From NCBI GenBank assembly GCA_947258695.1, contig CAMYJG010000012.1, forward strand, positions 1 through 64,000: 64,000 nucleotides of DNA, read 5' to 3'. The notes beneath the pieces were generated by a model. That model had not been told where the DNA came from, did not search any database, and was given only the letters and a program-made list of their open reading frames with translations. Source of the DNA: an uncultured Ectothiorhodospiraceae bacterium (GTDB lineage: Bacteria; Pseudomonadota; Gammaproteobacteria; UBA6429; Thiohalophilaceae). Made by a program: the position numbers and the translations under genes. The stretch's first letter is position 1, and each line of letters begins with the position of its first letter. Below, one piece after another: positions 48,257-58,372 of this stretch.

Positions 48257-48268
48257 GGTAATCTGCTG

Positions 48269-48298
48269 CACGAGCTTAAAAGCTCGTGTGGCTTTTTT
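48269..48298 (+). terminator. Rho-independent terminator
   Basis: CACGAGCTT and AAGCTCGTG pair around AA, followed by TGGCTTTTTT. It closes the transcript of the 52-residue protein gene and lies just before the 3' end of the minus-strand signalling operon. Confidence 0.88.
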
Positions 48299-48316: not shown

Positions 48317-50548
48317 TTATTCAACAACTTGCGGTCCAAGCACGCGCAGGACTTCATCGACCGTTGTTAGGCCAAGATTAACTTTTCGAGCTGCATCGTG
48401 GATTAGGCTATGCATTGTTTTATTAGCGGCCCTGGTTAATTCAACGGTACTTGCCTGGGAAGAAATGAGTTCCCGGATAGTATCATCAAGCACCAGCACT
48501 TCATGTATTGCCAAACGTCCGTTGTAACCAGTATGAGAACATTTACGGCAGCCTGCACCATGAAATGTCTTTAAATCACTGGCTTCAAAAGCTGGCCCAA
48601 GACTATGCAAAATGTCCTCGGGGATCTCAGTTTGTTCACGGCAATCATCACAAATTTTACGTACCAGTCGTTGTGCGATCACCGCTTCTAATGCAGCTGA
48701 AACAATATAAGGTTTGACGCCCAGGTCGAGTAGTCTGGCAATAGTCGCTATCGCTGAATTGGTGTGCAAGGTGGAATACACCAGGTGTCCAGTTAGAGCA
48801 GCATGAAAAGTCACTTCTGCTGTATCCAGGTCACGAATTTCACCTAATAAAATAACATCGGGATCTTGTCTCAGGATGGCACGGAGTACGGTAGGAAAAT
48901 CCATTCCATATTTTTCTTTAACCATGACCTGGCCAGCCATATCAAGATAATACTCAACCGGATCTTCGATAGTGACATAATTTTTATCCGGTGTTGCATC
49001 ATGTTGTAACATAGAATATAGCGTTGTTGTTTTACCGCTTCCGGTTGGTCCTGTGGCCAGGATAATGCCCTGTGGTTTACGAATAACTCTTGAAAGTTTT
49101 TTTAATTCAGTCGGTGCAAGCCCAAGCTGATCAATATTATGTACAGTTGCATTACGATCAAGAATTCGCATGACCACTTTTTCCCCATTGATAGTTGGTA
49201 GTGTTGAAATACGTAAATCAATGATTCGCATCGGCGTCTTGACGGTTATACGTCCATCTTGCGGTTTACGTCGCTCTGTTATATCAAGTTCTGACATCAC
49301 CTTAATGCGTGAGATCAGTGACATATGCAAATTATGTGGTATTTGAATTTTATCTGTTAATACACCGTCGATACGATAGCGGACAACAACAGACTTGGTT
49401 TTCGGATGAATGTGGATGTCACTGGCGCCAAGGCGTATAGCTTCAAGAACAATCACATTTACCAGGCGAATGGCTGGTGGTTCATCGGTGCTTCGTAGTA
49501 GCTCTTCCATACTAAGGTCGTCATCATCTTCAATAACAACCTCAATACCATCAATAGGGTCAGTATTTGCAACCAGTGTTTCCAGGTCTTCGAAATCGAC
49601 ATCGGTACCGTAGACGTCAATGATTTTTTCGCTAATATCAGCAGCATTTGCCATTACGGCTTGTATTTCCAGTCCGATAGTAAAACGCAAATCATCAATC
49701 AATCCCATATCCATGGGATCTGCCATTGCAATCATTAAACGCCTGTTTTCCTGTTTTAGAGGTAAAATAAGCTGTCTTTCACAAAAGCTTTTTGGCACAA
49801 GTGCCGAAACGGCTTTATCAATCTGGAATTCTGCAAGAGAAACCTCTTCAATCATTAAATCTTTTTTTAATAAACTTCTTATTTGATTCTCTGACACCCA
49901 TTCTCTTTCAAGCAATATTTTAATGGTCGGTGTTTTTTTAGTTTGCTGAATTTTATATATTTCCTGCACCTGTTTATCATTTAATAAATTACGTTTGTGC
50001 AAAATAATGGCGAGTTGACTTCTATTGGTAACAGCAAGTTTTGATAATGTTGAAATTTCTTTAGTTTTATCAGCATTTAGTTTTTGTAATTCTTTGTTAC
50101 GCTGAATTAAATCGTATTGTTCTAAACCCAGGCCGACTGTAATTCGTAGGTCATCATCGTTCCATGGCTTGAGAATAAATTTATATACCGCACCTTCTTT
50201 AATTGCTGTCATGACGGCTTCAGCATCTGCATGTCCGGTTAACAAGATTCGGATCATATCGGGATGTTCTGCTTTGGCACGGCGCATAAGTTCGCCGCCA
50301 TTCATAACAGGCATTTTGAAATCAGAAATCATCAACTGGCATTTCTCTTGCGCCAGTACTTTTAATGCTTCTTCGCCATTATTTGCGGTAAACACATTAT
50401 AATTTTCCTGGCGAAATACCCGCTTGAGAGAATTTAGAATATTCGGTTCATCATCAATCAGTAATATCTGGTATTTATCTGGTTTATCTGGTGATGCTGT
50501 TTCTTTATTAGTATCTTCACCGGTAAATAAGGAGGCATATTGCGACAT
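48317..50548 (-). CDS. Receiver-domain fused PilB/GspE-type assembly ATPase
   Basis: A 743-residue fusion. Residues about 25-145 are a HupR-like receiver (ILLIDDEPNILNSLKRVF, phospho-Asp in LMISDFKMPVMNG, FILKPWNDDDL). A helical linker leads to a T2SSE/MshE N-terminal domain (about 180-330), and the C-terminal half is a complete PilB/GspE hexameric ATPase: Walker A GPTGSGKTTTL, Walker B ILLGEIRD, His box HAALTGHLVYSTLHTN, and the zinc tetracysteine CDDC...CRKC. It powers type IV pilus or type II secretion subunit assembly in relatives. Here no pilus structural gene is nearby; it is the last gene of an eight-gene signalling operon, 4 bases after a kinase. Phosphorylation-gated motor activity is inferred. 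Confidence 0.9.
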   Translation of the reverse strand: MSQYASLFTGEDTNKETASPDKPDKYQILLIDDEPNILNSLKRVFRQENYNVFTANNGEEALKVLAQEKCQLMISDFKMPVMNGGELMRRAKAEHPDMIRILLTGHADAEAVMTAIKEGAVYKFILKPWNDDDLRITVGLGLEQYDLIQRNKELQKLNADKTKEISTLSKLAVTNRSQLAIILHKRNLLNDKQVQEIYKIQQTKKTPTIKILLEREWVSENQIRSLLKKDLMIEEVSLAEFQIDKAVSALVPKSFCERQLILPLKQENRRLMIAMADPMDMGLIDDLRFTIGLEIQAVMANAADISEKIIDVYGTDVDFEDLETLVANTDPIDGIEVVIEDDDDLSMEELLRSTDEPPAIRLVNVIVLEAIRLGASDIHIHPKTKSVVVRYRIDGVLTDKIQIPHNLHMSLISRIKVMSELDITERRKPQDGRITVKTPMRIIDLRISTLPTINGEKVVMRILDRNATVHNIDQLGLAPTELKKLSRVIRKPQGIILATGPTGSGKTTTLYSMLQHDATPDKNYVTIEDPVEYYLDMAGQVMVKEKYGMDFPTVLRAILRQDPDVILLGEIRDLDTAEVTFHAALTGHLVYSTLHTNSAIATIARLLDLGVKPYIVSAALEAVIAQRLVRKICDDCREQTEIPEDILHSLGPAFEASDLKTFHGAGCRKCSHTGYNGRLAIHEVLVLDDTIRELISSQASTVELTRAANKTMHSLIHDAARKVNLGLTTVDEVLRVLGPQVVE

Positions 50549-50552
50549 GGTA

Positions 50553-51779
50553 TTATTCCTTTACCGGAAGCGTAATAATAAAGCTGGTGCCATTATCTTT
50601 TTGGCTATCAACTTTTATTCGGCCGTCATGTGATTTTATAATATCCATTGACACTGTTAGACCAAGCCCTGTCCCGGAACCGACTTCCTGTGTGGTATAG
50701 AATGGATCAAAAATACGATCCAGTTGCTCAGCAGACATGCCGCAACCGTTGTCACTGATAGTTATAGATATCTCGTCATCAATAAATGCGGTTGTTACTT
50801 TTATTTTACCGTGGTCATGTTTTATTGCCTGGGAAGCATTTTGAATAATATTTAAAAATACCTGTCCCAGGTGGCCAGATTCACAGCGGGTTTTAGGTAA
50901 GTCTTTTAAATCAAGTTGCAGTTCAGCGGTTTGGGCTATTTGGCTACTTGCAACATTACCAACAGAACGAATGACTTCGTTCAAGTCAGTAATAGCGACC
51001 TCAGTACCATCAACATTTGAAAAGTCTTTGAGATCAGCAACGATTTTTTTTACCCGATCTGCACCATCAATACTTTCCTTGAGTAAAATCGAAAAATCCT
51101 CAAGGTTGAAATCTATATCATTCTCTTTCCAGAAAGTTCTAAGTTCACCACTATCGACATCGTTATTTAGCTTTTTTGCAAAGTCATCCATTACATTTAC
51201 ATAGTCAACAGCGGTACCTAAGTTGCTACGAATAAAACCGATAGGATTATTAATTTCATGTGCTACACCTGCGGCAAGTTGGCCCACTGAAGCAAATTTT
51301 TCTGCCTGGTATAATTGCCGTTGGGCAGCATCAATAGTTTTAACCTGTTGCTGCACACGTTGCTCAAGATTATCTGCAAGTTCTTTATACTTTGCTTCGG
51401 AAGCAAGTAAATCTTCATGTTTTTTTTGTAGTTTTTCGTAATCAGCATGAACTGATTCAAGATGCAGATCTGATGCCATGTGATATCGCTCAGAACTTTT
51501 TAATAGTAGTTGCAATAAAATTGCGACATGTTTTGCAGCTTGTCCATTTTCTGCTTCGAGGTAGCCAATGGGTTCAATTTGTACAGCAAGCATTATTTTG
51601 TGAGAGTCAGGTTCTGCATTTTCTTCACCAAAGATAACCTTGTCTTTACTATCAAGCAGGCGGACTGTATTTCCCAACATGTTTTTTAAACTGGCATATA
51701 ATTTTTTTTGATTTATTCCCTTCAATAAATCATATATCGTCAGGTCGCGATCAAATGTATTTTGCGGAATTATGCGCAT
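50553..51779 (-). CDS. Soluble sensor histidine kinase (GAF-like sensor)
   Basis: A 408-residue cytoplasmic kinase. The N-terminal 120 residues look like a small sensor of GAF type (KNMLGNTVRLLDSKDKVIFG, KIMLAVQIEPIGYLEAEN), followed by a coiled coil (about 125-170) and a kinase core with GVAHEINNPIGFIRSNL (phospho-His) and ISDNGCGMS, GSGTGLGLTVSMDIIKSH. The HEINNPIG form is shared with the second kinase of this operon at 54.4 kb. No receiver is attached; phosphate probably goes to one or more of the four stand-alone or fused receivers encoded in the same operon. Confidence 0.88.
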   Translation of the reverse strand: MRIIPQNTFDRDLTIYDLLKGINQKKLYASLKNMLGNTVRLLDSKDKVIFGEENAEPDSHKIMLAVQIEPIGYLEAENGQAAKHVAILLQLLLKSSERYHMASDLHLESVHADYEKLQKKHEDLLASEAKYKELADNLEQRVQQQVKTIDAAQRQLYQAEKFASVGQLAAGVAHEINNPIGFIRSNLGTAVDYVNVMDDFAKKLNNDVDSGELRTFWKENDIDFNLEDFSILLKESIDGADRVKKIVADLKDFSNVDGTEVAITDLNEVIRSVGNVASSQIAQTAELQLDLKDLPKTRCESGHLGQVFLNIIQNASQAIKHDHGKIKVTTAFIDDEISITISDNGCGMSAEQLDRIFDPFYTTQEVGSGTGLGLTVSMDIIKSHDGRIKVDSQKDNGTSFIITLPVKE

Positions 51780-51787
51780 ATTTATAC

Positions 51788-52444
51788 CTACATATCGCTT
51801 GATGCCATCACTGACATGATAAAGTCATTTTCTTCGAAACCATGTTTTGATTTAAGTTCAAAACGGCGTTCCATATCCTGATATACAAGAAAAAGTAATT
51901 TTTCAAATGTTTCTTTCACGCCGGCACCTGTTGTGGCGGTACTAAAAATAATAGGCCACTTAGTTTGCCCCCACCGTTGATTAACTTCTTCTTCGCTGAC
52001 AATATCGGTTAAATCTCGTTTATTAAACTGCACAACCAGTGGTAATGAATCAAAATCAAGTCCGACGCGTTTAGAATTATCAGCCAGGTTCTGAAATGAT
52101 TCGCCATTATTCACTTTCTGGTTGTTTTGTGAGTCGGCAACAAAGACGATACCATCTGCACGTGAAAGGACGGATTTTCTTGTGCCATCATGGGCAACTT
52201 GGCCAGGAACAGTAAATAATTTAAATTTAATTAATAGTCCGGATTTTGCTCTTATGCCAATGGGTAATAAATCAAAAAACAAGGTGCGATCATTTTTGGT
52301 TTCCATGGTCATCAGTTCACCAGATAATTGTGGATCAATCAGATCATGCAGTGACATCAGATTTGTTGTTTTGCCACTCAGTGCTGGACCGTAATAAACC
52401 AGTTTAATGGTTAGTTTCTGCTCATTTTCATCGTACTCCGCCAT
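51788..52444 (-). CDS. MglA-type small GTPase
   Basis: A 218-residue Ras-like GTPase of the bacterial MglA/COG2229 type. The P-loop is YYGPALSGKTTNLMSL, the switch II region reads LFTVPGQVAHDGTRKSVLSRADGIVFVADSQ with Pro in place of the classical Asp-Thr (VPGQ as in MglA), and the base-recognition motif is QFNKRDL. MglA proteins control cell polarity and type IV pili in gliding bacteria. No Roadblock/MglB GAP gene is visible nearby, so its activating partner is unknown. It lies 2 bases after the stand-alone receiver gene and 8 before the kinase gene. Confidence 0.9.
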   Translation of the reverse strand: MAEYDENEQKLTIKLVYYGPALSGKTTNLMSLHDLIDPQLSGELMTMETKNDRTLFFDLLPIGIRAKSGLLIKFKLFTVPGQVAHDGTRKSVLSRADGIVFVADSQNNQKVNNGESFQNLADNSKRVGLDFDSLPLVVQFNKRDLTDIVSEEEVNQRWGQTKWPIIFSTATTGAGVKETFEKLLFLVYQDMERRFELKSKHGFEENDFIMSVMASSDM

Positions 52445-52446
52445 AG

Positions 52447-52965
52447 CTATTCATCATCTTCAATCACAATTGATCCATCTTCATTCCAGTTAACATGAGT
52501 AATACCAGGGCTTTCTTTTTCCAATTTAGATAACAGTTTCTGGTTTTTACTTAATTCTTTGCTTTGGCTTCGTACCTGGTTTGCCAGGAATATGTTTTCT
52601 GTCATTATTTCTTTGTACTTTAATGATTGCTCAATAGTGAGTATGAGTTCATAGTCGTTCCAGGGTTTGTGAATAAAACGAAATATTTCTGCTTCGTTAA
52701 TAGCGCTAACTAAAGCTTCCAGATCTGTATAACCACTTAAAATAATGCGGACTGCATTTGGTTGTATATCTTTTACCTTGATAAGAAACTCTACCCCATT
52801 CATTTCCGGCATACGGTAGTCAGAGATAAATAAATCAAACGAGCTTGATTCTGCACCTGCAGCTGAAGTAAATGTTTGAACGTTCCAGTCCCCGATTTTT
52901 TTTAAACATCGCTTAAGTGCATTAACAATGTTTTCTTCATCATCGACAATTAATATGTTGTACAT
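52447..52965 (-). CDS. Stand-alone HupR-like receiver protein
   Basis: A 172-residue protein: receiver (residues 1-125) with ILIVDDEENIVNALKRCL, phospho-Asp in LFISDYRMPEMNG and FIHKPWNDYEL, then a short coiled coil and an acidic C-terminal tail (NWNEDGSIVIEDDE). There is no output domain, so it may act by binding another protein of the operon, for example the GTPase or the ATPase. It is embedded between the REC-HD-GYP gene and the GTPase gene. Confidence 0.87.
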   Translation of the reverse strand: MYNILIVDDEENIVNALKRCLKKIGDWNVQTFTSAAGAESSSFDLFISDYRMPEMNGVEFLIKVKDIQPNAVRIILSGYTDLEALVSAINEAEIFRFIHKPWNDYELILTIEQSLKYKEIMTENIFLANQVRSQSKELSKNQKLLSKLEKESPGITHVNWNEDGSIVIEDDE

Positions 52966-52976
52966 TTGAATTTCCT

Positions 52977-54347
52977 TTAGCCTACGATATAAACATCCAT
53001 CTTCTCATTGACAGAGTTTTCCATTTTTCGAATACGACGAATTATATTTTCATTGAGTTTTTGACCTTTAGTTAATAACACAACGCCATTACACATTTTT
53101 AAATCTCTTGCCAGAATCATGCCTTCAGAGATTTTAAGAGTGTTAAGTTTTAATTCTTTTACTTTATCTTTTTTAACTTCTTTAACTTCTTTATTTTCGA
53201 TATCAGATGTATCTGATATTCCTAGCATTTTAAATAACACGTCCACCAGCGTTGGATCGTATCGTGTGCCTCGGTTGCGATTGATATTGGCAGCGCTTTC
53301 ACTGGCGGAAAGTCTCTGAGATGACAATAAACCTGCCTGTAAAGAATAATAATCGCCTACCAGTGCGAGGATTCGAGAACCAAGAGGTATGTCTTGCCCT
53401 TTTAAATTGTCCGGATAACCCTGGCCATCGTATTGTTCATGTTGATGACGAATAATAGTCGAAGCCGTTTCAAGATATTCAAGTGACATTAATATTCCCT
53501 GACCAATATCAGGATGCATAATGAATGTAGTTTGTTCTTCACTACTTAGACTGTTAAATGGTTTACTAATTAATTCATCAGGTAAACCTATTTTTCCTAT
53601 ATTACGTAACAGGCATGCAAATGTTAGTTGTTGCACTTCGTCATCAGACATCCCGATTGTTTTTGCTATTTTCTGTGAAATGTCAGTAATGTTCTGCGTT
53701 AAACCACTTTCTCCTCCTTCACGTAACTCAATGATATTGGAAAATACTTTAATGGTAGTGACATAGTTATTCTTTAACGAGTTATGTGCAAGCTGCAATT
53801 GCCCCATTGTTTGACGTACTTCTTCAGTACGCGCTGTAACTCTTTCTTCCAAGTCTTCATTGAGTTCTTTGAGTTCTCTATTTTGAGCTTCTGTCAACGC
53901 TTGAAGTCTTTCCCGTTCTTTCTCCAGATATTTGCCTTTAAGTGCATGTTGTATGGTAAGGCGAATATCATTGTCTTCCCAGGGTTTACTAATATAACGA
54001 TAGATGCTGCCTTTATTAATCGCATTGATAGTGGACGTAATATCTGCATATCCTGTTAGCAGTATTCGAATGGTGTCAGGATATTTATTAGCAACACGCT
54101 CCAGGAATTCAGCCCCATCCATTTCGGGCATTCTCATATCTGATACAACGATATCCACTTTTGCCATCTCTAGCATGGTCAGTCCTTCAGCACCACTTTC
54201 AGCAACCATAATGTTTCCAATAATTGGTCGAAATAATCGTTTTAATGAAGACAGAATATTTTTTTCATCATCAACGAATAAAATAGTTGCATCCAGCTTA
54301 TTTTGCGTAGGATCCTTTTGCTCTGATTTATTTGACTGAGTATTCAA
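52977..54347 (-). CDS. Receiver plus degenerate HD-GYP domain protein
   Basis: A 456-residue protein with a HupR-like receiver (about 20-140; VVSDMRMPEMDG, YISKPWEDNDI), a coiled coil (about 145-190), and an HD-GYP-type domain (about 200-385). The GYP-side motifs are recognisable (HPDIGQGIL, HQHEQYDGQGYP) but the metal-binding HD dyad, normally HDIGKI, reads RNIGKIG and the first helix His is also missing. c-di-GMP phosphodiesterase activity is therefore unlikely; a ligand-binding or interaction role is more plausible. A C-terminal domain (about 395-456, ISEGMILARDLKMCNGVVLLTKGQKL) is the small beta module often attached to HD-GYP proteins. Confidence 0.87.
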   Translation of the reverse strand: MNTQSNKSEQKDPTQNKLDATILFVDDEKNILSSLKRLFRPIIGNIMVAESGAEGLTMLEMAKVDIVVSDMRMPEMDGAEFLERVANKYPDTIRILLTGYADITSTINAINKGSIYRYISKPWEDNDIRLTIQHALKGKYLEKERERLQALTEAQNRELKELNEDLEERVTARTEEVRQTMGQLQLAHNSLKNNYVTTIKVFSNIIELREGGESGLTQNITDISQKIAKTIGMSDDEVQQLTFACLLRNIGKIGLPDELISKPFNSLSSEEQTTFIMHPDIGQGILMSLEYLETASTIIRHQHEQYDGQGYPDNLKGQDIPLGSRILALVGDYYSLQAGLLSSQRLSASESAANINRNRGTRYDPTLVDVLFKMLGISDTSDIENKEVKEVKKDKVKELKLNTLKISEGMILARDLKMCNGVVLLTKGQKLNENIIRRIRKMENSVNEKMDVYIVG

Positions 54348-54377
54348 AATTTATACCTATATACAAATGATATTAAA

Positions 54378-55817
54378 TTAACTTTCTGCTTGCTGTTCTG
54401 GTTGTTTAATCGGAAGCGTAACTGTAAAGGTTGTGCCTTTATTAATTTCGCTATCTACTTCAATATTGCCACCATGTTTTTGAATGATGCTATATGATAA
54501 TGACAAACCTAGCCCCGTTCCCTGGCCTACAGGTTTTGTAGTGAAAAACGGTTCAAATAATTTAGCAATGTTTTCTTGTTTAATTCCGCTACCTGTATCT
54601 GTGACCTTAATCCAGACCGTGTCATTGTCATTTTTCCCGGTACGAATCGTAATGGTGCCCTGGCTTTCTATTGAATGTGCTGCGTTAACCAAAAGATTCA
54701 TGAACACCTGGTTTATTTGAGATGCGATGCATTCTATGTCAGGCACATCACCATATTCCTTAATGACTTCTGCTTTATATTTAATCTCGTTATTAACCAC
54801 GTTTAAGGTGCTATCAATCCCGCTATGCAGGTTTGTCCATTGCCATTCTTCTTCGTCGACATGAGAGAAATCCTTAAGATCCTGTACAATTTTTTTAACC
54901 CGGTTAACCCCTTCTTTTGATTCACTAAGTAATTGACCGATATCTTCTTTAACAAAATCATAGTCAATATCTTGTTTAAGTTTGGTTACATCTTCTGCAG
55001 CAACACTCTTTTCTTCGCTTAAAACAGATACCTCGTCAACAAAAGTCAGTAAGTCTTTTACATAATCATCCAGTGAAGTGATATTTGAGTTAATGTAACC
55101 AACCGGGTTATTTATTTCATGCGCCACTCCGGCGGCAAGCTGGCCAATCGATGCCATTTTTTCCGATTGCAGAAGTTGACCTTGTATTTCATTTATTTTT
55201 TCCAGCAGGCTTGCTTGTTCCGCTTTTTCTTGTTCCAGTAAAATATTTTTGTCGGCTAATTCATTTAATAATTCAGTTCTTTCGCATATATGTTCAATTT
55301 CAATGATGAAGAGTTTAATAATCATCTCGTCACTTTCATCAAAAAGTTCACCATCATTTTTTTCTGATAAATAAACTGTACCACGTACTACTTTGTTTAC
55401 TGTTAACGGCATACCTATCAGGGTTGTCATATCAGGATGACCGTCCGGAAAACCGACTGAATCAGGGTCTTCCTTGATATTATTTATAATCGAAGTTTCG
55501 GGCGATTTATATATTTTACTTAGCAGACCTTTTCCTTCTGGTTTATTGCCTAATCTTTTTTTTGTTTCATCGTCGATGCCGACAGTGTAAAAACTTTCAA
55601 GCTTGCCGTCCTGAGAAAACAGACCAAGTGCAACATATTTTGCCCCGGCTAATGAAGATAATTCTGAAACAAATTCCTGGTAGAAGCTTTCGACATCACC
55701 CGTGTTATACAGTTCAGCTTCCAGCTCCCTGATTTTTTGTAAAGAATCTGTGAGCAAAACCATTCTGATATTTGCTTTAGCAAGGTAATCTAGTTGTTCC
55801 TGGTAATTATCATTCAT
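54378..55817 (-). CDS. Soluble GAF-domain sensor histidine kinase
   Basis: A 479-residue cytoplasmic kinase. A GAF domain occupies about residues 30-175 (SSLAGAKYVALGLFSQDGKLESFYTVGID, IGMPLTVNKVVRGTVYLSEK), followed by a coiled coil and a kinase core with GVAHEINNPVGYINSNITSL, TDTGSGIKQ and GQGTGLGLSLSYSIIQKHGG. Its catalytic core closely parallels that of the other kinase in the operon. No receiver or membrane segment is present. Ligand of the GAF domain is unknown. Confidence 0.88.
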   Translation of the reverse strand: MNDNYQEQLDYLAKANIRMVLLTDSLQKIRELEAELYNTGDVESFYQEFVSELSSLAGAKYVALGLFSQDGKLESFYTVGIDDETKKRLGNKPEGKGLLSKIYKSPETSIINNIKEDPDSVGFPDGHPDMTTLIGMPLTVNKVVRGTVYLSEKNDGELFDESDEMIIKLFIIEIEHICERTELLNELADKNILLEQEKAEQASLLEKINEIQGQLLQSEKMASIGQLAAGVAHEINNPVGYINSNITSLDDYVKDLLTFVDEVSVLSEEKSVAAEDVTKLKQDIDYDFVKEDIGQLLSESKEGVNRVKKIVQDLKDFSHVDEEEWQWTNLHSGIDSTLNVVNNEIKYKAEVIKEYGDVPDIECIASQINQVFMNLLVNAAHSIESQGTITIRTGKNDNDTVWIKVTDTGSGIKQENIAKLFEPFFTTKPVGQGTGLGLSLSYSIIQKHGGNIEVDSEINKGTTFTVTLPIKQPEQQAES

Positions 55818-55841
55818 AATATTTAGTCACTTTTATTAATG

Positions 55842-56675
55842 CTAATCGATGTTATCGAACATACCATCCAGCATAGACATTTTTTGTTTGATTTCCGGCA
55901 ACATGGTTTGCAATGTCTTTTTATCAGAACCAAGTTTTACAAGGTAATCATTATTGATATTTTTTAATATGTCAGCTTCAGGCAAGTCTGCTTCTAACTG
56001 ATAACAAATACTATCTGCCAGGCTTAGTAAGGCAGCTGCAGAAGAATTAACAAGTTCAGAGGGCTGATGGTGTGTTTCAATCAATTCCTGTATATCTTCG
56101 GGCAGGTTCCATTTACCAATTATTTTTGCCCCAACCAGGGCATGACTGATTCCCAAAAGCTTAGTTTCTTCATCAATGCTGTCACATTCCATCGAATTTT
56201 CTGCTTCTATCAATGAGTGGTATTCAGGAAAAGTATCTAAAAGGATAAATTTACCTACATCGTGCAATAAGCCGACGATATAAGCTTTGCCCTGATCTTG
56301 TTGTGTTTGTTTTTCCAGAAACTCAGCAACAGTTGCTACTTTAAGAGAGTGAGACCATATATTTTTTCGTTCTGCAGTCGCTGGAAATGATTCTAATGCG
56401 CCGGCCGATAACAAGATGTTTCTTATAATATTATTACCCAAAATAACAGATGCACTTTCAATATCATCTATTTTCCCACTCATTCCATAAAACGGTGAAT
56501 TTGCAATGGATAACAGCCGTGCTGCAAGTAAAGGTTCTTGCTTTAAAACACCGGCTATTTCTCGATTATCTGTTTTGGCAGAATCAATTATACTGATCGC
56601 TTTTTGAATAACCTGGGAAAATGGTTTTACATTAGCAATTGCTTGTTCAATCTTTTGTTCTGTTTCTGCGCTCAT
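55842..56675 (-). CDS. HDOD-domain protein
   Basis: A 277-residue HDOD protein, a non-catalytic relative of HD hydrolases that acts as an interaction module in signalling and type IV pilus-related pathways. Typical segments are VIQKAISIIDSAKTDNREIAGVLKQEPLLAARLLSIANSPFYG and the pseudo-active YIVGLLHDVGKFILLDTFPE followed by LVGAKIIGKWNLPEDIQELIETHH. It lies between the first receiver gene and the GAF kinase gene, with short gaps (33 and 24 bases), indicating a shared transcript. Confidence 0.88.
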   Translation of the reverse strand: MSAETEQKIEQAIANVKPFSQVIQKAISIIDSAKTDNREIAGVLKQEPLLAARLLSIANSPFYGMSGKIDDIESASVILGNNIIRNILLSAGALESFPATAERKNIWSHSLKVATVAEFLEKQTQQDQGKAYIVGLLHDVGKFILLDTFPEYHSLIEAENSMECDSIDEETKLLGISHALVGAKIIGKWNLPEDIQELIETHHQPSELVNSSAAALLSLADSICYQLEADLPEADILKNINNDYLVKLGSDKKTLQTMLPEIKQKMSMLDGMFDNID

Positions 56676-56708
56676 ATTGTTAATCTTTTTTACTCTTGGT
56701 TATACTTT

Positions 56709-57608
56709 CTATATCGTTTCAGTTAAGACTAATATCGTTCCACCTGAACCTGAACTTATCCCCATTTTCTTGCCATGTACATCCAGCCTGGCTTCATTTG
56801 CTAACGTGACAGTCTCAAACTGATCGCCTGCTTTACTGGATACATTTTCATATATATCAAACAATTTATCGGGTAGTGACTGTTTTGCCATGCTGCCGAT
56901 TACTGGTGCTGTGCCATTGCTTAACCATTGTTCTGTTAATTTATTGGTAATTGCCACGATACCGCTGTCATCAATGCCAATAATGCCTGCTGGCATATTC
57001 TCAAGCACCTCTTGTGCGATAGTCAGAACATGCAGGTTTAAATTTGCTTCTTCTGTTTTTTTCTCAACATTTTTACTTAGTTGCAGGTTCGCTTTTTCTA
57101 ATGATGCATTTGCCAGCTTTAGTTCTTCAGTTAAGCGGATGTTCTCTAACTTCATTTCATAATGTTCAAAAGCTTCGGCCACATTTTTCTGTAATAATTC
57201 ATCATCCCAGGGTTTGGTTAGAAATTTGTAAATGGCGCCTTCGTTAATGGCATCAGTAACGGAATTAAGCTCTGTATATCCGCTGAGTACGATACGAATG
57301 GTATCTGGGTGTGTTAGTTTTACCTGGTAAAGAAATTCTACCCCGGTCATTTCTGGCATTCTTTGATCCGTAATAATGACGCCAATGTCGTGTTCTTCCA
57401 GAACCTTTAGCCCTTCTTTGCCACTATATGCCCGAAATATTTTGTAGCCTTCTCTACGTAATAGCCGGGTCAAAGACGACACGATATTTTCTTCGTCATC
57501 AACGAGTAATAGTGTTCTTTGATATTGTGTGTCATCTACCAAGATGATGTTCTCCAAGCCGTTATATTTAGCGGATTCACTTTTTTTGAATAATTGCTGC
57601 TTTAACAA
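56709..57608 (-). CDS. Receiver-coiled coil-PAS protein
   Basis: First gene of the minus-strand signalling operon; 299 residues. A HupR-like receiver (about 28-148; LLLVDDEENIVSSLTRLL, VIITDQRMPEMTG, FLTKPWDDELL) is followed by a long coiled coil (about 155-200) and a PAS-like domain (VLENMPAGIIGIDDSGIVAITNKLTEQWL). No enzymatic output domain. The receiver is clearly paralogous to those of the other three receiver proteins encoded downstream. The start codon at 57608 lies just after an AT-rich promoter region. Confidence 0.86.
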   Translation of the reverse strand: MLKQQLFKKSESAKYNGLENIILVDDTQYQRTLLLVDDEENIVSSLTRLLRREGYKIFRAYSGKEGLKVLEEHDIGVIITDQRMPEMTGVEFLYQVKLTHPDTIRIVLSGYTELNSVTDAINEGAIYKFLTKPWDDELLQKNVAEAFEHYEMKLENIRLTEELKLANASLEKANLQLSKNVEKKTEEANLNLHVLTIAQEVLENMPAGIIGIDDSGIVAITNKLTEQWLSNGTAPVIGSMAKQSLPDKLFDIYENVSSKAGDQFETVTLANEARLDVHGKKMGISSGSGGTILVLTETI

Positions 57609-57958: not shown

Positions 57959-58372
57959 ATGACTACTTCATCATCCGACAATTTTTTTGCTGGCCTCAAA
58001 TCCATTGTGGATTCAGCTTTTCCTAAAACATGTCCTATGTGTGGGAAAACGTATAATAATGAAGATGCCTTTATAAATGAGACAACAAAGCTCAATAATC
58101 AAACTGGACTTAAACAGTCCTATGATGATGATGATCACACCATCGTCGAGCTCTATCGAAATTGTTCCTGTGGTTCGACATTAATGAATTTTTTTGGTGA
58201 TCGCCGGGATACTTCCGAAGCAGGTGAAAAACGCAGGGCGAAAATTGGAGAGCTTATTGAGTACCTTATCACCCAGGGTCTAGAACAAGACCTGGCGCGG
58301 ACTGAGTTATTAAAAGCAATACGTGGCGAAAAAAGTGAAGTGCTAAAAAAAATCAAGCTTCCAAAAAATTAA
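57959..58372 (+). CDS. Small zinc-ribbon-like protein of unknown function
   Basis: A 137-residue soluble protein. Two cysteine pairs, CPMCGKTY at about residue 26 and CSCGSTL at about residue 69, could form a split zinc ribbon. A C-terminal helical half (RRAKIGELIEYLITQGLEQDLARTELLKAIRGEKSEVLKK) is basic. I do not recognise the family. It is transcribed divergently from the signalling operon and ends at a shared bidirectional terminator with sat. A regulatory or adaptor role is possible. Confidence 0.7.
   Translation: MTTSSSDNFFAGLKSIVDSAFPKTCPMCGKTYNNEDAFINETTKLNNQTGLKQSYDDDDHTIVELYRNCSCGSTLMNFFGDRRDTSEAGEKRRAKIGELIEYLITQGLEQDLARTELLKAIRGEKSEVLKKIKLPKN

Follow-up and report, generated by a model that had tools for sequence, protein, structure and literature searches.

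What could a bacterium do with a pilus motor ATPase encoded in one operon with two-component receivers, histidine kinases and an MglA-type GTPase, and which machine would such a motor drive? The question is raised by a 64,000-nucleotide stretch of DNA (hereafter the window) from an uncultured Ectothiorhodospiraceae bacterium. The ORF check places eight minus-strand genes at positions 48317–57608, with gaps of 4, 8, 2, 11, 30, 24 and 33 bases (from the last gene to the first), in agreement with the original prediction, made from the letters of the window, of eight minus-strand genes spaced by 2–33 bases. The first gene encodes a REC-(weak PAS) response regulator of 299 aa (56709–57608; Pfam REC, PAS sub-threshold). 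It is followed by genes for an HDOD protein of 277 aa (55842–56675; PF08668, 1.5e-46), a GAF histidine kinase of 479 aa (54378–55817; Pfam GAF and HATPase, HisKA slightly under the cut-off), a REC-HD-GYP response regulator of the NosR family (52977–54347; Pfam REC and HD_5, NF053512) and a stand-alone receiver of 172 aa in which the Pfam REC domain is extended by a tail of ~55 aa (52447–52965). The last three genes encode an MglA-family GTPase of 218 aa (51788–52444; Pfam Arf/Ras-like, MglA structure matches at 4e-43), a soluble histidine kinase of 408 aa termed HK2 (50553–51779; Pfam HisKA-HATPase), whose N-terminal ~100 aa are predicted to form a small GAF/roadblock-like alpha-beta domain, and a REC-MshEN-T2SSE ATPase of 743 aa, a receiver-fused PilB-like motor assigned by Pfam, invariant residues and a separate clade (48317–50548). 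The earlier domain list agrees with Pfam apart from the MshEN domain of the motor, which it did not contain. The exact 5' ends of the first and fourth genes are uncertain because both start codons are TTG. A pattern scan detects a 12-pair stem just 3' of the last stop codon (48265–48292, strand unassigned), a possible transcription terminator; the promoter scan found sites no more often than in shuffled sequences, and phage-family profiles gave no informative match.

The receiver-fused ATPase has all features of the T4P/T2SS extension ATPase superfamily, that is, Walker A, the GEIRD Walker B, the tetracysteine zinc motif and MshEN. The MshEN domain follows the receiver and precedes the ATPase core, and both PF00437 and PF05157 score over their Pfam cut-offs. 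No variation in Walker A, Walker B or the four zinc cysteines occurs among 72 sequences, and the receiver residues D33, D76, T104 and K127 are invariant in 71 orthologues, with E34 kept in 98%. This is so even though motors of different families are only 62–68% identical. The motor does not reach the family cut-offs of PilB (TIGR02538; 565.2 bits vs 675.65, compared with 857.3 for the true PilB of the genome), GspE (TIGR02533; 553.2 vs 630.25) or TfpB (NF053534; 447.6 vs 850). In a tree with reference PilB, MshE, GspE and TfpB sequences, labelled via NCBIfam, the receiver-fused ATPases form one clade with support 100/100. Its nearest neighbor is the TfpB clade, with weak support (80/87); the deep forks of the tree are poorly resolved and the PilB of the genome sits on a long branch. 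As far as sequence can tell, the motor is a member of a distinct conserved PilB-class clade in which the motor residues are complete and the receiver is intact. The receiver-fused PilB/GspE-like motor foreseen in the original prediction is therefore confirmed, with its phospho-acceptor site intact.

Is the association of this motor with its neighbors more than a local accident? A GTPase alignment was scanned against one genome per species (84,980 species), yielding 420 relatives, of which the best 80 loci were fetched; this set consists of the closest relatives, and counts made on it apply under that condition. The set spans gammaproteobacteria, betaproteobacteria and Desulfobulbales, which are soil and water bacteria of distant kinship; cultured carriers are Aromatoleum toluvorans, Azoarcus, Dechloromonas, Methylomonas, Zoogloea oleivorans and Desulfogranum. 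The conservation of gene neighborhoods, proposed earlier as a check, holds throughout the readable part of these best 80 loci. In each of the 77 loci where HK2 was recognised, its gene lies directly 3' of that of the GTPase (median gap −4 bases), and the receiver-fused ATPase gene is 3' of HK2 in all 71 readable loci (median gap 3 bases); the genes often overlap. Judged by this gene order, the motor is genetically locked to the MglA-type GTPase and the soluble kinase. Among the 57 of the best 80 loci that have at least 9 kb of upstream sequence, a GAF-type kinase gene is found in 46, the REC-PAS type in 43, REC-HD-GYP in 42, REC in 39 and HDOD in 26; all five types occur together in 23. In 370 genomes evenly drawn from the class, each at least 90% complete, 8 contain the receiver-fused ATPase and 10 a GTPase orthologue, which is a partial match in two of them. 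All eight ATPase-bearing genomes have the GTPase (Fisher p 6e-15, ignoring kinship). Within the same genus, the GTPase occurs in one of seven other species (genomes G001–G007), and hence the operon is patchy, often gained or lost.

The pilus machines of the genome were then compared with the motor. Contig 32 carries a pilA-pilB-pilC-pilD locus, contig 7 an MSHA-like locus with pilins, a platform and MshE, and contig 9 pilT/pilU; gene names other than those of the ATPases were read from translations. The genome has only two platform proteins, each with its own ATPase adjoining, and the receiver-fused ATPase is therefore the third motor of extension type, one that lacks its own machine. A pilus system deprived of an ATPase, which had been proposed as something to look for, was not found in this genome, since both platforms are paired with an ATPase. 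The opposite possibility named there, that the motor is simply a routine PilB in a normal pil operon, does not apply, as the true PilB is encoded in the pilA-B-C-D locus. In the best 80 of the 420 loci, no platform or secretin-type machine genes were found in the operon or up to about 10 kb away, and a single pilin-like ORF was seen near the operon, in one locus. Because no pilin or platform gene accompanies the motor, bar this one ORF, the motor probably acts in trans, as the original prediction had proposed from the lack of an encoded pilin, MglB or chemoreceptor.

Our preferred reading, to which we give an even chance, is that the operon encodes an accessory, signal-gated type IV pilus extension motor that is controlled by phosphorylation and by the GTPase and acts in trans. 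The T4aP gene pilP is present in 10 of 10 class genomes with the GTPase and in 39 of 41 locus genomes, vs 293 of 360 of the rest. The association is weak (p 0.13 and 0.015, ignoring kinship) because T4aP is common to most of the class. The motor could instead serve an MSHA-like machine or a type II secretion-like system, and the operon would then control attachment or secretion. T2SSF platforms are present in all 41 locus genomes, often several per genome, the genome studied here has MSHA-like pilins and a platform, and the related kinase family, matched below its cut-off, is named 'T2SS_HK' by NCBI. However, the MSHA-like locus already owns an MshE with c-di-GMP motifs, and the motor clade groups with neither MshE nor GspE; we regard this alternative as rather unlikely. 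The ATPase could also have ceased to drive a filament and become an ATP-dependent output or scaffold of a GTPase-centred signalling complex. The lack of platform and secretin-type genes beside the motor in the best 80 of 420 loci, with their single pilin-like ORF, would fit such a role, as would the fact that all remaining operon genes are signalling genes, but the invariance of the zinc cysteines, the GEIRD box and all other motor features at such low identity between families makes it unlikely.

Extra T2SSE ATPases of no known type, in frames of ~780–820 aa, were observed in four of the operon genomes (G083, G067, G098 and G076).

What could feed a signal into the motor? All four operon receivers contain DDE and KPWxD, and each retains the phospho-acceptor Asp along with the Thr/Ser and Lys residues, which are invariant or nearly so among orthologues. 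The three best matches of the motor receiver among the REC domains of the genome are the other receivers of the operon (115, 111 and 87 bits; the next match has 60), which identifies the four as expanded paralogues. Both operon kinases carry the HEINNPxG motif (HEINNPVG in the GAF kinase and HEINNPIG in HK2). The shared receiver form, the paralogy and the two HEINNPxG kinases had all been predicted, and each of them stands.

The GTPase matches MglA of Thermus and Myxococcus at about 1e-43. It has the features expected of MglA, namely homology, the Arg finger R53, Gln82 and N/TKxD, and R53, Q82 and NKxD (MglA numbering) are invariant in 81 sequences, which bears out its earlier assignment as MglA-type. 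MglB is the usual partner of MglA. No MglB (roadblock/LC7, PF03259) was found in the genome studied here, and the roadblock/LC7 protein is absent from 31 of the 41 operon genomes. For this reason the operon GTPase seems to work independently of MglB. A sequence-profile comparison of the HK2 N-terminus with MglB gave no significant match (probability about 2%). A distant Deinococcus relative of the GTPase provides a contrast case, with MglB adjoining. An orphan MglA is not new in itself, as 59 MglA homologues without a coupled MglB were listed by Wuichet and Sogaard-Andersen (PMC4316618).

The predicted fold of the HK2 N-terminus, a small alpha-beta domain, matches roadblock proteins, MglB among them (Z 6.4, rmsd 2.5 over 77), and GAF domains (Z up to 7.3) about equally well, all values being below Z 8 and too low to choose between the two; Foldseek gave no match under 0.001 for this region. 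In all readable loci the HK2 gene is flanked by those of the GTPase and the motor. We speculate that a roadblock-like N-terminus of HK2 could, instead of MglB, sense whether the MglA-type GTPase is loaded with GTP, forming a relay from GTPase to histidine kinase to phosphorylation of the motor receiver. We consider this relay quite doubtful.

Could c-di-GMP be the messenger instead? The MshEN domain of the motor was searched for two RLGxx..G....LxxxLxxQ motifs, following the pattern of PMC5013675. None of the 72 motors has the c-di-GMP motif, even by the relaxed published pattern, and MshE of the same genome, used as a positive control, matches twice. According to the same paper, imperfect MshEN motifs may still bind c-di-GMP, so that the loss of c-di-GMP binding by the motor is a prediction. 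The REC-HD-GYP protein passes the NosR family model NF053512 (532.3 bits vs cut-off 400). In the window copy, LRNIGK replaces LHDIGK and QHE replaces HHE, and with the loss of H248, D249 and H302 the HD pair and one histidine of the HHE, metal ligands of an active HD-GYP phosphodiesterase, are gone. The protein is thus predicted to be catalytically dead. The REC-HD-GYP gene named in the original prediction is present, but this copy is degenerate. The HD pair is retained in ~82% of orthologous HD-GYPs, and therefore the decay concerns this copy and not most relatives. Given the predicted dead HD-GYP and an MshEN domain without the c-di-GMP motif, c-di-GMP is unlikely to act on the motor.

The same data bear on a further alternative, namely that the operon encodes a system like NosP/NosK/NosR, sensing nitric oxide or redox state and signalling through c-di-GMP, to which a motor has been attached. 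The described system responds to nitric oxide, and its kinase NosK phosphorylates NosR (PMC12570481). In favor of the comparison are the NosR family score, the size and unassigned N-terminus of HK2, which are as described for NosK, the HD pair kept in most orthologues and a protoglobin-PAS-GGDEF-EAL-REC protein in an operon of relatives (locus L029). Against it, the FIST sensor (NosP, PF08495) was not found in the genome, which is 95% complete, and neither the residues of the window HD-GYP nor the motor MshEN domains, read beside their MshE control, point to c-di-GMP. We find such a system quite improbable here. Large PAS-GGDEF-EAL-REC proteins, one of them with protoglobin, do occur in the operons of relatives, and c-di-GMP as well as gas sensing may thus be of importance in other carriers. 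The protein with protoglobin belongs to Methylobacillus sp. MM3 (L029:2217–5300), where it lies within the related operon and is a possible gas-sensing input.

Returning to the accessory pilus motor, we suggest the following scheme. The GAF kinase and HK2 would phosphorylate the receivers, and the receiver of the motor could govern the formation of hexamers or the docking of the motor to a platform already present in the cell (PilC or MshG). Instead of MglB, the GTPase would have HK2 and the stand-alone receiver as partners, and it may set where or when the motor is used, comparable to MglA and SofG acting for PilB in Myxococcus. There, T4P formation is stimulated by MglA (PMC7519303), and PilB and PilT are positioned by SofG (PMC4316618). 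The motor would add to PilB or replace it on the T4aP machine, like TfpB in Acinetobacter baylyi, which is a second extension motor by experiment (PMC8213720). The degenerate HD-GYP and the HDOD protein could be binding or scaffold proteins here. The pilus target, the phosphotransfer and the action of the GTPase on the motor are all putative in this scheme. Points against it are the purely putative contact with a pilus machine, the weak link to TfpB, the TfpB, PilB and GspE scores below cut-off, the missing MglB and the weak pilP association. Overall, the observation behind the original prediction is confirmed, and its interpretation is partly supported.

The candidate system resembles several known ones in part. 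Like TfpB (PMC8213720), weakly its nearest named clade, the motor is an extra PilB-class motor alongside a canonical PilB; unlike TfpB, for which no receiver domain and no GTPase/kinase operon are reported, it scores 448 against the TfpB cut-off of 850. The MglA/MglB/RomR module and SofG of Myxococcus xanthus share an MglA-type GTPase with the intrinsic Arg53 and Gln82, receiver proteins and control of PilB-driven pili. In contrast to that module, the window genome lacks MglB, and the GTPase shares its operon with kinases and a receiver-fused motor of its own. NosP-NosK-NosR (PMC12570481) has in common the REC-HD-GYP family, a soluble kinase without a known sensor domain and a degenerate HD-GYP, whereas the window system has no FIST sensor and adds GTPase, HDOD and motor genes. 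The motor shares the MshEN-T2SSE core with MshE, the c-di-GMP-gated MSHA pilus ATPase (PMC5013675), but lacks the c-di-GMP motif, and control seems to have shifted to the fused receiver; the same paper mentions in passing that MshEN is associated with REC.

Bacteria often have more PilB-like ATPases than pilus machines, and a 2024 review (PMC11656802) asks for the purpose of the extra ones. The 2024 review on the control of PilB does not use the words GTPase, MglA or receiver, and it mentions a REC domain for FimX only. The parts of the operon belong to known families. We found no prior description of the gene set, nor of its deeply conserved, linked combination, in the accessible text of the open-licence literature; a subscription paper was possibly missed. 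The conserved linkage of motor, GTPase and kinase suggests a not yet described way of switching pilus motors on and off. It defines a conserved family of extra motors whose control lies in the same polypeptide and operon, comprising a receiver, kinases and an MglA-type GTPase without MglB. The operon allows a direct test of pilus-motor switching by phosphorylation, and it represents an MglA system whose candidate partners are identified by linkage.

Additional genes were observed at or near the operon. A ~105-aa protein of no known family, absent in the window, is encoded between the REC-PAS and HDOD genes in L046 (6268–6594) and nine other loci. A DUF6901-kind gene (PF21842, tested on L025) is found near the operon in five diverse genomes (L025:14868–15569, and L014/L022, L032, L053 and L067). 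In the window, the operon adjoins a 137-aa ORF without a Pfam match (57959–58372), homologues of which occur near the operon in loci L014/L022 and L091.
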